Positions 27,969 to 33,158 of a stretch of DNA of 43,502 bases are shown here, in pieces. Each line of letters starts with the position of its first letter. The first letter of the stretch is position 1. The position numbers were made by a program, and so were the translations under genes. The notes under the pieces were generated by a model, which was given only the letters and a program-made list of their open reading frames with translations, was not told where the DNA came from and made no database searches. The DNA lies in NCBI GenBank assembly GCA_947455255.1, contig CANGOA010000007.1:1-43502 (forward strand). Reading direction: 5' to 3'. This DNA comes from Flavobacteriia bacterium. GTDB lineage: Bacteria; Bacteroidota; Bacteroidia; Flavobacteriales_D; Crocinitomicaceae.

Positions 27969-28802
27969 TTACTTCGTCCCAAATACATAATTTAGTTGAA
28001 ATCCTAAAATGGAATAGTCATTAAAGGCTAAATTTGTTCGTTGTTTATTTGTAACCCCTAGAGATGGTGGACTAGTATTTATATCATGTCCACCCATCCA
28101 TGGTAGATTAAATTCTTTTTGACCCGCAAGATAAAGCATTAAATCTAATTTTTTCAATGCTTTTATAGGTTTAATTTTAAAACCTAATCTAAAACGGTAT
28201 CGATGTAAGCCATTTGGAGAATAATAACCATCATAACTACCATCATCCTTGTAATACATCATCGATTCACCTCCTAGATAATAATACAATATCATTTGTG
28301 CGAAGGGTTCAAATTCCAATGGCCATTTTCGATTATCATATGATAATTTTGATCCCAAAGTAATTCGTGAATGATATTTTTCCATGGATGGGGTAAAATA
28401 TTGGAAGGTCATATTCTCTTCTAATTCAAGTTTTTTGTTGAATTTGAAAATGTACTTTACACCAATGGTTGGTCTATTAAAATAAATTGCTCCTAAGTAA
28501 ATTTTATTGCGATATGCTTGATTATATTGTGGACTCCAATTATTTATATACAAAGCATCCCCAAACATCAAAATAAATTGTTTCGTCAATTTATAATTGA
28601 AGGTCAAATCATTTTGCATAAAATTAAAGATGTGCCGTCTTGAATCAAAACACATCAAATTAAAATTATCGATATAGATTTTTTTGTTAACCTTAAAATA
28701 GAGGTAACTACTATATTCAAATTTCTTTTCACCGTTAATATCTTGGGCAAAAATCAATGTTTGAAAGGATAGAAATAATATAATTAAAATGCGATTAATC
28801 AT
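27969..28802 (-). CDS. Outer-membrane beta-barrel protein (DUF2490-like), last gene of the pgs operon
   Basis: 277 residues from the second ATG (28802); an ATG at 28808 is equally possible. A signal peptide ends near FAQ. The mature protein is built of alternating polar and aromatic strands, with FEYSSYLYFKVNKKIY, RHIFNFMQNDLTFNYKLTKQF, YRFRLGFKIKPI and a C-terminal ...FQLNYVFGTK, which fit a 10-12-strand barrel like DUF2490. Its start overlaps the end of the lipoprotein gene by a few bases, so it belongs to the pgsBCW operon. It may be the outer-membrane exit or anchor for the polymer; that is inference. Confidence 0.75.
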   Translation of the reverse strand: MINRILIILFLSFQTLIFAQDINGEKKFEYSSYLYFKVNKKIYIDNFNLMCFDSRRHIFNFMQNDLTFNYKLTKQFILMFGDALYINNWSPQYNQAYRNKIYLGAIYFNRPTIGVKYIFKFNKKLELEENMTFQYFTPSMEKYHSRITLGSKLSYDNRKWPLEFEPFAQMILYYYLGGESMMYYKDDGSYDGYYSPNGLHRYRFRLGFKIKPIKALKKLDLMLYLAGQKEFNLPWMGGHDINTSPPSLGVTNKQRTNLAFNDYSILGFQLNYVFGTK

Positions 28803-29499
28803 TGACATTAAAATCTACATTTTTAATAGCATCGTTATTTTTTAAAACAGAAACGATGGTGTCGATTAACAAATATGGTGGTGTTGCAACGCTATTTTTA
28901 GAATATACATATATTTTGTATTTACCAACAGGTAGACTATTAAAAACATAATTTCCGTTATAATCTGTGTAATTTGCATTGGTATTTGTAGAATCATTCA
29001 TGTCTGTCAAATACACTTTTTCATGTATCGCAGTATACGAAGCTCCCAATTTGTGTCCAGTAATATTCCCAGATATGGATGCATTTCCTTTTATTGGTGT
29101 ATTATCTGCAATTTTAAAAACTCCTGCATCCACTAATTGATTGCTTTTTGTAATTGTTACTGGAATAGTAATCGGAATTTGACTTGAACTTAGCATAGTT
29201 GTATCGTCAGAATAAACATATAACTTATAATTTCCTGGCACTAAATGATTGAAGTTAAAGGAGCCATCAAAACCTGTTTTTACTTTATCTCCATATCCTT
29301 TTCCATCTTCAAAAATGATATAAACATCTGCGTTTGCATATAGTGATTCTTCTCTTAATACAGAATAATTAGAGTTATATTTTCTAATTTTTACTACACC
29401 TTTAATTCCAGAATTCCCTCCATATCCTGGTGTTTTATCACATGAACTAAAGAAAATAGATAAACCTGCTAAAAGGGTACATATAACTGATAATTTCAT
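28795..29499 (-). CDS. Lipoprotein with two carboxypeptidase-regulatory-like beta domains
   Basis: 234 residues. The lipoprotein signal ends FFSSC (Cys20). Two related beta-sandwich units follow, at about 33-115 (GIKGVVKIR...GFDGSFNFNHLVPGNYKLYVYSDD) and 140-232 (ISGNITGHK...DYNGNYVFNSLPVGKYKIYVYSKN). Both have the G-x-(Y/F)-x-F-x-x-L-x-x-G-x-Y-x-(I/L)-Y-V pattern of prealbumin-like domains that often stabilise surface or transport proteins. It sits 2 nt after the preceding gene and overlaps the barrel gene, so it likely works in the periplasm or at the outer membrane for the pgs system. Confidence 0.82.
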   Translation of the reverse strand: MKLSVICTLLAGLSIFFSSCDKTPGYGGNSGIKGVVKIRKYNSNYSVLREESLYANADVYIIFEDGKGYGDKVKTGFDGSFNFNHLVPGNYKLYVYSDDTTMLSSSQIPITIPVTITKSNQLVDAGVFKIADNTPIKGNASISGNITGHKLGASYTAIHEKVYLTDMNDSTNTNANYTDYNGNYVFNSLPVGKYKIYVYSKNSVATPPYLLIDTIVSVLKNNDAIKNVDFNVND

Positions 29500-29501
29500 T
29501 G

Positions 29502-29900
29502 TTATTTCGTTTTTATTTTGGTGTTATATTCAATTAATATTAAGGCGGATTTTTTCTTATCCTCTAAAGAAAACTCATAGGTATGCGCTCCTTTGGGTAG
29601 ACTTAAATATATCACATTGGAATTACCAGGTATCAATTTTTTCTCATCTACATATTCTGTTTTTTGTGATTTTTCACCAGATATTTTGTAGGATTTTACA
29701 ATAACTCCTTTTTCTTTTACATTTAAAATAATTGGTTTACCAGATTGATCTTTAAAATCTAATTCTGCTTTAATGATAATTTTAAGTTGCGTTGTATCGG
29801 TTGTATTTAAAACAAATTTTTTCTCGTTCGTTATTCGATGAAATTTTACAATTGAATTTTTCTTGTTTAAATATTTTACACGAACTGTATCTAATGGCAT
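29502..29900 (-). CDS. Beta-rich protein without signal peptide, in frame with upstream gene after one TGA
   Basis: 132 residues from ATG at 29900. No family recognised. It has no signal sequence, yet its neighbours are all secreted. It is in the same frame as the gene at 29919-30413, separated only by TGA (29921-29919) and six sense codons (KNLTPS). Its pattern (DTVRVKYLNKK...LKIIIKAELDF...LPKGAHTYEFSLEDKKK) resembles the upstream protein (HQVGIVRLQGKK...IEVLLRVRLED...VPPGQHVIKIYKGDTEQ), so the two look like tandem copies of one domain. It may be the second half of a split or read-through protein rather than an independent gene. Confidence 0.6.
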   Translation of the reverse strand: MPLDTVRVKYLNKKNSIVKFHRITNEKKFVLNTTDTTQLKIIIKAELDFKDQSGKPIILNVKEKGVIVKSYKISGEKSQKTEYVDEKKLIPGNSNVIYLSLPKGAHTYEFSLEDKKKSALILIEYNTKIKTK

Positions 29901-29918
29901 TGATGGCGTAAGGTTTTT

Positions 29919-30413
29919 TCAATCTGGTTGGTCCTTGTCTTTGAAGTATTTAAATTCAGCATGAATTTTTTGTTCGGTATCCCCTTTGTAAATTTTAATG
30001 ACATGTTGTCCCGGTGGAACATGAATAAATACTTTGCCAGCAGCACTCGGTTTACCTTTTAATTTAGCGTTTTTGAATTTTAAATGTTTTGAAACTTTCT
30101 CACCTTTAAGTGTATCCACTTTCATTTTCTTATCGTCTAATACGTGCTGTATCACATATGGCAAACTACTTTTTGTAGTGTCTTCCAAGCGTACACGTAA
30201 TAATACTTCTATTTTTCCAGGTCCCATTACTACCAATTCTGTTCTTTCTTTTTCAGATAATGCATAGTATGTTAGTGTTTTTTTACCTTGCAGACGTACG
30301 ATACCAACCTGATGTTTTGGTTTAATTTTTTTACCTTTTATGGTCGATTTTTGTCCAAAAACTAAACTTGTTGTACTAAATAGTAATGCAAGAAATAACG
30401 TGAATACTTTCAT
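29919..30413 (-). CDS. Secreted beta-rich protein of the pgs operon
   Basis: 164 residues from ATG at 30413, which starts a signal peptide (KVFTLFLALLFSTTSLVFGQ); the frame also opens at 30443 inside pgsW. The mature part is basic (many Lys) and beta-rich, ending HVPPGQHVIKIYKGDTEQKIHAEFKYFKDKDQPD. It lies 4 nt after pgsW. The excess of Lys would suit contact with a polyanionic polymer such as poly-glutamate; this is inference. See the next gene for the in-frame TGA. No known family was recognised. Confidence 0.75.
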   Translation of the reverse strand: MKVFTLFLALLFSTTSLVFGQKSTIKGKKIKPKHQVGIVRLQGKKTLTYYALSEKERTELVVMGPGKIEVLLRVRLEDTTKSSLPYVIQHVLDDKKMKVDTLKGEKVSKHLKFKNAKLKGKPSAAGKVFIHVPPGQHVIKIYKGDTEQKIHAEFKYFKDKDQPD

Positions 30414-30417
30414 AATT

Positions 30418-31524
30418 TTAATCGTTTGTTTTAATAATTTCATTTCCTAATGCGTGTTGTTTTTTATCTAAATAGATAGTAACTAATAACAAACCTACTA
30501 AGAAAAATAAAGCAACTCCTACTATTCCAACTTGGTATTTTAATGAATAGTATAATTTGCCTTTACCAATTTCTGGCAATGGAATAGGTTCTAATGGTAA
30601 ATCATATTTATTCATTAATTGTTCGACGTTTTTCAAATGTATGATTGGAATATTCTTTTTGGCCATTTCAAACATTACTCCTTTTTTATCAGGAAAATCT
30701 TTTAATTTTAATGTTTCATGATAGCCAGCACGAATGGCATCTCCATTGATATCACTACCATTACTGGCAACTCCACCTCCAATATTTATAAATGCTTTAA
30801 TGTTTTTGTGTTGGTTAAATAAGTGTAGTCTTTTTGAAATATTTCCTTCAAAACTTCCTGTATTAATGTATGGTAGATGATTTCTATTAATCGCTGCTTC
30901 GACTAAATCTCGGCCTTCTCCACTTAAAGCTCTTCCGATATCTAAATTACCTCCCATGGATGCAGCAATGGAGTGGTTTGTGAAAATTTTATCCTCAAAT
31001 AATTCGTGTTCCATATCAACCCATGTAAATTCTGGATCATTGGCTCCCCACGATGATGCCGTCACTGATGAAATAATGATTGGTTTAATTCCAAGCGTTT
31101 GAATAGCTGCTAATGCTGCGACATTTAATCCCGGGAACGAACCAGTCATACAAATTGCTACTTTATCTCCTTTTTTTAAGTGTGCATCTTTCAAAAGTTG
31201 TACAATCATTCCTCCAAAATTTGGATTCATGGTAGATGCTTTGATAGGTAATGAACCACTTCCTGTAGTAATTGGTGTGTATTGTTCTCCGATTAACCCT
31301 GTTTCGTTTGGATCATTGATGTTATCTACAAAGTGTACATTTTCAAAACGTTCATTTTTTAAATGTAAAAGTGCTTTTTGAGTTAGCCTAGAAGCTGCTA
31401 TTTTTTCGTTATACCATTCTTCCTTGACATTTTTTTTCGTTGTTTCAACAACATATAATAATCCTATAGAAAGTAAAGCTAACGTTGCAAGTATAGGAGT
31501 AGAACGGATGGATATTTTTGCCAT
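30418..31524 (-). CDS. pgsW: Poly-gamma-glutamate system protein PgsW
   Basis: 368 residues. A membrane helix at about 11-27, a large periplasmic or cytoplasmic domain, and a second helix at about 335-356 (QVGIVGVALFFLVGLLLVTIYLD). Blocks such as ETGLIGEQYTPITTGSGSL, KASTMNPNFGGMIVQLLKDA, GDKVAICMTGSFPGLNVAAL and FINIGGGVASNG fit the 'poly-gamma-glutamate system protein' family found next to pgsB and pgsC in Gram-negative genomes. The biochemical role is not known. It starts 3 nt after pgsC. Confidence 0.88.
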   Translation of the reverse strand: MAKISIRSTPILATLALLSIGLLYVVETTKKNVKEEWYNEKIAASRLTQKALLHLKNERFENVHFVDNINDPNETGLIGEQYTPITTGSGSLPIKASTMNPNFGGMIVQLLKDAHLKKGDKVAICMTGSFPGLNVAALAAIQTLGIKPIIISSVTASSWGANDPEFTWVDMEHELFEDKIFTNHSIAASMGGNLDIGRALSGEGRDLVEAAINRNHLPYINTGSFEGNISKRLHLFNQHKNIKAFINIGGGVASNGSDINGDAIRAGYHETLKLKDFPDKKGVMFEMAKKNIPIIHLKNVEQLMNKYDLPLEPIPLPEIGKGKLYYSLKYQVGIVGVALFFLVGLLLVTIYLDKKQHALGNEIIKTND

Positions 31525-31527
31525 GTG

Positions 31528-31983
31528 TTATATATTTGAAAGTAAAGCTCCTCCGAAGCAAAGAATAACTGCTAATCGCACAATGATAGAAGTAATTGCC
31601 AACATTGCTAGCGTTTTTGGATAACCTTGTTTTGCTGACCAGTGTGCTATTAATCCTGGAATTACCCATCCAATTGCACTAAATTCAGCAGTGCTATTAT
31701 CTGTATTGAAGACCAAAAAATGATGAGATAATATGGATAACAGTGTACCAACTAATAATGCTACAACCATTTGTCGACGACCAAATAAGAAGGTGAACTT
31801 TGAAATCAATAAAATGATTAAATAGGTGGCAAGTGAAATAATTACGGTTCCAATTAATTTATCGGGAGTATTTAATTGTAAGGCTATATAACCAGGTATA
31901 ATGACACCCCCGGCTGCCAATCCAAATGCTTCTATGAAAAACAAACTGAGTACAATTCCCAGTGTGATTGCTAATTCTACCAT
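31528..31983 (-). CDS. pgsC: Poly-gamma-glutamate biosynthesis protein PgsC/CapC
   Basis: 151 residues, the family length, with about four to five membrane helices. The start VELAITLGIVLSLFFIEAFGLAAGGVIIPGYIAL and the ending GWVIPGLIAHWSAKQGYPKTLAMLAITSIIVRL are PgsC/CapC hallmarks. PgsC forms the membrane partner of PgsB in polymer synthesis. Its ATG overlaps the pgsB stop by one base (TAATG), so expression is coupled. Confidence 0.95.
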   Translation of the reverse strand: MVELAITLGIVLSLFFIEAFGLAAGGVIIPGYIALQLNTPDKLIGTVIISLATYLIILLISKFTFLFGRRQMVVALLVGTLLSILSHHFLVFNTDNSTAEFSAIGWVIPGLIAHWSAKQGYPKTLAMLAITSIIVRLAVILCFGGALLSNI

Positions 31984-33158
31984 TATTTTACTTGTTTACT
32001 TTCAAAATATTTAACCAATTCTGCACCACCTGCTCCCATGTTTCCAATTCCAACGATTGTTGTTTTCTTTTTGGAAGCATTACATAAATCGATGTACACT
32101 TCTTCTGTTGGCTTGCTTCCTATCGGAACAATCTCTTCTCGTTTAATTTTCTGTTTGATGCCCATTTCAACAACTAAATCAACCACATCACCAATGAGCG
32201 CAACCGAACTATAATTCAATTTAAGTGCAATAAGTTCTATCAATTGCTTTGCACGATCTTGTCGATCTTTACGTGTATTCAATAAAATGATGAGGTGTTC
32301 ATCAGCATCTACATGTTTGACAATACTGTTCCAAATCATCAACGAAGATTCAGGATCGTTTGCAGCAAAAGCGTTGTAAAAGTCAATGCGTTTATCGTCA
32401 TAGTTTACAGTCACTTTCGTCAGTACTCCCTCGTCTGGAATAGTCTTTTTCATTTCTGCTAATGCAAGCGCTCGGTCGACGCCTAATTCTGCACAAATAT
32501 CCAATGCCAAGGATACATTTTCTTTGTGTTCGATGTAGGTAAATCCTACCATATCTTCATCCGAAATCGTACTCGCAAGTGCTTGATGAATCTTAGTATT
32601 TCGTTTCTTCGCAACCGCTTCAAACATGTCTAAACGTCGATCTTCACTGGTAAAAATCTTTGAGTTTTTAGGAATTGTTCCGCACAACGCTCGACCAACA
32701 TCGTCTAAACCTGGTCCCATGACATCTAAGTGGTCTAGACGAACATTGGTAATTACTCCAATCGTTGACTTAACCATTTGTAGTTCGGTAATTCGTTGGT
32801 ACTGTGGTTGCAAAGCCATACATTCAATAATCAATACTTGTGCTTTGTTTTTCGCACAGTATTTAATCACTTTAAGTTGCTCTAGTATGTTTGCTTTTTC
32901 ATTACGATGAATTGCTGCTTCGCTTCCATCTGGAAGAATGATTCGAGGAAAAGTCCCAGTAACTTTTGTATATGTTTTATATCCTCCAACCCTTAATCCT
33001 GCTCCAATCAAGCGTGTCACACTCGATTTCCCACGTGTACCATTGACATGTATACGCACGGGTATTGATTTCACATACCGTTGATGTATCTGATATTCAA
33101 TAATTCCATACACCAGAAGTATTGATAAAAGAATTAATGTAACGTAAAAACTTATCAT
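31983..33158 (-). CDS. pgsB: Poly-gamma-glutamate synthase PgsB/CapB
   Basis: 391 residues. An N-terminal membrane helix (2-21) is followed by a Mur-ligase-like ATP-dependent amide ligase. The P-loop is HVNGTRGKSSVTRLI (GTRGKS at 40-45), followed by GGYKTYTKVTGTFPRIILPDG, ECMALQPQYQ and ITNVRLDHLDVMGP, all typical of CapB. It joins glutamates through gamma-carboxyl links with PgsC. This is the first gene of a seven-gene run. No PgsA/CapA, CapD or CapE gene is present in the window. Confidence 0.95.
   Translation of the reverse strand: MISFYVTLILLSILLVYGIIEYQIHQRYVKSIPVRIHVNGTRGKSSVTRLIGAGLRVGGYKTYTKVTGTFPRIILPDGSEAAIHRNEKANILEQLKVIKYCAKNKAQVLIIECMALQPQYQRITELQMVKSTIGVITNVRLDHLDVMGPGLDDVGRALCGTIPKNSKIFTSEDRRLDMFEAVAKKRNTKIHQALASTISDEDMVGFTYIEHKENVSLALDICAELGVDRALALAEMKKTIPDEGVLTKVTVNYDDKRIDFYNAFAANDPESSLMIWNSIVKHVDADEHLIILLNTRKDRQDRAKQLIELIALKLNYSSVALIGDVVDLVVEMGIKQKIKREEIVPIGSKPTEEVYIDLCNASKKKTTIVGIGNMGAGGAELVKYFESKQVK

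Follow-up and report, generated by a model that had tools for sequence, protein, structure and literature searches.

A predicted exported two-repeat protein of a poly-gamma-glutamate operon, interrupted by a single in-frame TGA in a freshwater member of the Crocinitomicaceae

Two consecutive open reading frames (ORFs) on the reverse strand of the window analyzed here, the whole 43,502 nt stretch taken from contig C7 of a freshwater bacterium whose draft metagenome-assembled genome (3.04 Mb, 212 contigs) is 77% complete, raise the question whether they represent two genes or one gene broken by a stop codon and, if the latter, what the stop signifies. The first-pass annotation had described the two as sharing a reading frame and being split by a TGA and six codons, and translation of the window reproduces this arrangement: positions 29502-30413 (minus strand) form a single frame in which the only internal stop is the TGA at 29919-29921 (codon 165), and six codons lie between this TGA and an ATG at 29898-29900 (codon 172), so that the translation reads KDKDQPD up to the stop, KNLTPS after it and MPLDTVRV from the ATG onwards. 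The gene likely starts at the ATG at 30413, which agrees with the starts in the relatives, rather than at 30443, where the ORF finder had placed the start. The N-terminal part (29922..30413, minus strand, codons 1-164; delimited by translation, alignment and profile comparison) consists of a putative signal peptide and repeat domain 1. The signal peptide, judged by eye, is typical, MKVFTLFLALLFSTTSLVFG followed by Q; it would span codons 1-20 (30354..30413, minus strand), with cleavage before Gln21, which is nearly invariant in the alignment of the homologues. The C-terminal part (29505..29918, minus strand, codons 166-303; delimited by translation and profile comparison) consists of repeat domain 2 and continues with an intact frame for 138 codons to the terminal TAA (29502-29504, minus strand). 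Its first ATG is located 18 nt past the TGA and, as the earlier reading had remarked, no signal peptide is discernible in its sequence.

The genomic distribution of this protein speaks directly to the choice between one gene and two. Homologues were identified in 17 other Bacteroidota genomes, 5 of them from the 119 relatives and 12 from class, phylum and order samples, and the set spans the range from the same genus to the same phylum; in all 17, the protein is encoded by a single ORF of about 300 aa with no interruption. Among the 119 relatives, there are 6 carriers including the present genome, and the other 5 copies are uninterrupted. The three same-genus homologues (G004, G009 and G010) are 90, 87 and 82% identical to the interrupted protein, respectively, are encoded in one ORF of 301-303 aa each, and contain a TGG codon at the position of the stop. 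The residue aligned with the stop is tryptophan in 15 of the 17 genomes, and leucine and serine in the two most distant ones; the same-genus proteins contain no other tryptophan. The alignments accordingly indicate that this is one gene, not two, and that the TGA is a derived, lineage-specific feature at a position occupied by a sense codon in the relatives, as the first-pass annotation had anticipated in proposing a single secreted two-domain protein that was broken. The possibility that the two ORFs are ancestrally separate genes that share a frame by chance, for which nothing can be adduced beyond the ORF listing itself, is refuted by the single ORFs that run across the stop position in all the homologues, and we assign it a negligible probability.

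The resemblance between the two halves, which had been noticed from their strand patterns, is confirmed at the level of sequence profiles, though BLASTP of the N half against the C half yields no match. Comparison of profiles built from the N-half and C-half alignments of 11 sequences gives a probability of 96% and an E-value of 3e-9 over 104 columns, and a control with the reversed C profile produces no match. Judging by these profiles, one domain is repeated in the two halves in distantly related form, and the protein is the product of an old internal duplication. Both domains probably adopt a beta-sandwich fold. Neither half shows a significant match to a family in Pfam, NCBIfam, PHROGs or PADLOC, a profile search against the PDB sequences retrieved nothing significant (the best hit, to the putative adhesin 3pet, has an E-value of 0.08), and no description of the two-repeat protein was found in the literature searched.

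The genomic context connects the interrupted gene with poly-gamma-glutamate (PGA) synthesis. In the window, all on the minus strand, it is preceded by pgsB, the gene for poly-gamma-glutamate synthase (31983..33158, E 1e-126), pgsC/capC (31528..31983, matched to its family in Pfam/NCBIfam) and, 4 nt upstream, a gene for the poly-gamma-glutamate system protein TIGR04332 (30418..31524, E 1e-95). Downstream are two intact genes, one for a putative lipoprotein with two carboxypeptidase-regulatory-like beta repeats (28795..29499, assigned by family match and intact in comparison with G004), and another, at the end of the operon, for a probable outer-membrane beta-barrel protein (27969..28808), for which neither Pfam nor NCBIfam gives a match and which is so designated from its sequence character. 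The operon differs among genomes at its 3' end: some of the loci contain the carboxypeptidase-regulatory-like lipoprotein gene, and in others the gene for an outer-membrane-barrel-like protein follows directly (window 27969-29499; L007, L127, L131 and L139). The association with TIGR04332 is strict. The homologue and TIGR04332 are present in identical sets of genomes, namely, 6 of the 119 relatives and 6 of the 395 genomes in the class sample, and in all 18 genomes examined the homologue gene adjoins the TIGR04332 gene and directly follows it (window 29502-30413; L003-L007, L127-L131, L139-L144 and L150). In the 14 more distant genomes, without exception, the TIGR04332 match is on the same strand and ends about 140-240 nt before the homologue match. 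The interrupted protein would seem to be an accessory protein of the PGA operon that has so far gone undescribed. Because of the signal peptide and this strict operon partnership, we infer that the intact protein is an envelope accessory for the export or anchoring of poly-gamma-glutamate.

Given that the stop falls exactly on a conserved tryptophan, the TGA could in principle be decoded as tryptophan under a reassigned code. Codon usage argues against this. At aligned tryptophan positions in the window (each counted once per relative), TGG occurs 186 times and TGA six times, the latter being three views of codon 165 and three spurious antisense ORFs. In the 193 genes shared with G010, about 655 aligned tryptophans are encoded by TGG and two by TGA, one of which is the codon 165 site and the other lies upstream of a true start codon; no credible case of TGA for tryptophan besides codon 165 is left. 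Furthermore, TGA terminates six genes in the window, and a fragment of prfB, the gene for RF2, is present at a contig end. TGA is not credibly found at the many other conserved tryptophan positions compared and still serves as a stop, so that tryptophan decoding is refuted for practical purposes and its probability is vanishingly small. The prfB fragment, located at the end of contig C19, breaks off near model position 154; the G009 gene is scattered over contigs C122, C85 and C66 as fragments that cover 1-154 and, twice, 126-353, which may reflect an assembly break. No tryptophan tRNA was seen in the scanned parts of the draft genome, an observation that, with partial coverage only, proves nothing.

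The C half shows no sign of decay. In the comparison with G004, in which dS is above 1, dN/dS is 0.056 for the C half and 0.040 for the N half, with no indels, and no frameshift is found in the C half. The C half has acquired 7 synonymous and 4 nonsynonymous substitutions specific to this genome; the corresponding counts for the G004 branch are 15 and 6, which leaves no excess. An old pseudogene does not fit the low dN/dS and the lack of indels downstream of the stop; if the gene is a pseudogene, these data indicate that it is a recent one. Since the C half is undecayed, the stop either is young compared with the divergence from G004, or is not real, or is bypassed. Such preservation would fit an assembly error or a functional bypass equally as well as a recent mutation.

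With homologous ORFs intact across the stop position in all 17 genomes, and a derived stop at a sense position, the interruption is probably real, a nonsense mutation that this strain or species acquired recently and presumably an ordinary loss-of-function change. The first-pass annotation had named a nonsense mutation, a sequencing error and stop-codon read-through as potential causes; the first of these agrees best with the data, a base error is possible, and read-through finds no support, with no stop at this position in any of the other genomes. The source is a draft metagenome assembly, in which a single base may be erroneous or may come from a mixture of strains, with TGG and an intact gene in the real population. 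Domain 2 is fully preserved, with a dN/dS close to that of domain 1, and the gene contains no other lesion, as would be expected under such an error; the assembly, however, is not error-ridden. In a survey for broken genes that compared about 0.68 Mb of this genome with about 0.86 Mb of G010 (193 genes, 71,474 aligned residues), codon 165 was the only internal stop that could not be explained by an ORF start set too far upstream. A consensus error or strain mixture is accordingly unlikely, although it is the chief alternative; we infer that the TGA base is real, and the single frame, the single stop and the tryptophan of the relatives are read directly from the sequences.

The ATG at 29898-29900, 18 nt beyond the TGA, is a newly arisen potential start codon. 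It is present in this genome only, the three same-genus relatives having leucine in its place, and results from Leu172Met, one of two unique residue changes near the stop. Reinitiation at this ATG would yield two polypeptides, the second one cytoplasmic, and would be compatible with the constraint on domain 2 over the branch as a whole. Nevertheless, domain 2 would be made without a signal peptide, whereas the homologues are exported; leucine to methionine is a common change, and the genome-specific changes near the linker, suggestive at first sight, do not form a significant cluster (Fisher p 0.21). We regard a split gene with reinitiation as improbable, and as very improbable a genuine early fission, whereby domain 1 would be exported alone and domain 2 made from the new ATG, with both still useful. 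Programmed or leaky UGA read-through, producing a short and a long form, would account for the continuation of both the frame and the constraint past the stop. The signature of programmed read-through is a conserved stop with constraint on both sides; none of the 17 other genomes carries a stop at the position of codon 165, so that nothing is conserved and incidental leakage is the most that could be expected. Read-through of either kind is highly improbable.

Under the preferred explanation, a recent nonsense mutation, Bacteroidota with a PGA operon encode, directly after TIGR04332, a single exported two-domain protein of about 300 aa. A G-to-A transition would have converted the only tryptophan codon of this protein (codon 165, in the interdomain linker) to TGA, and the undecayed state of domain 2 would mark this change as recent. 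The predicted product is an exported truncated protein that consists of domain 1 only, and domain 2 would either not be made or be present in the cytoplasm at trace level. The step of PGA export or anchoring that is served by the full protein would then be impaired in this strain, with pgsBC and the other operon genes intact.

As a stop codon, the TGA is ordinary. The genome annotation should carry 29502-30413 as one interrupted gene. Of broader interest, the analysis delineates an exported protein of two repeats, apparently undescribed so far, that constantly adjoins TIGR04332 in the Bacteroidota sampled. As a constant, exported partner of TIGR04332, this protein likely acts in the envelope, in the export of poly-gamma-glutamate by bacteria that have two membranes; the present genome would provide one natural truncation of it. 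With respect to the known operon of TIGR04332 (gamma_Glu_sys) and PgsB/PgsC, the interrupted gene is inside that operon, always after TIGR04332, in the 18 genomes; its protein differs in that it reaches the cut-off of no family in Pfam or NCBIfam. Recent nonsense pseudogenes in surface-polymer loci are similar in that a single premature stop interrupts an otherwise intact and conserved gene, copies of which are intact in the relatives, and differ in that here the base is known from the assembly consensus of one draft genome only. The lesion in this gene consists of a base substitution and does not involve an indel in a repeat, so that phase variation by slippage does not apply.
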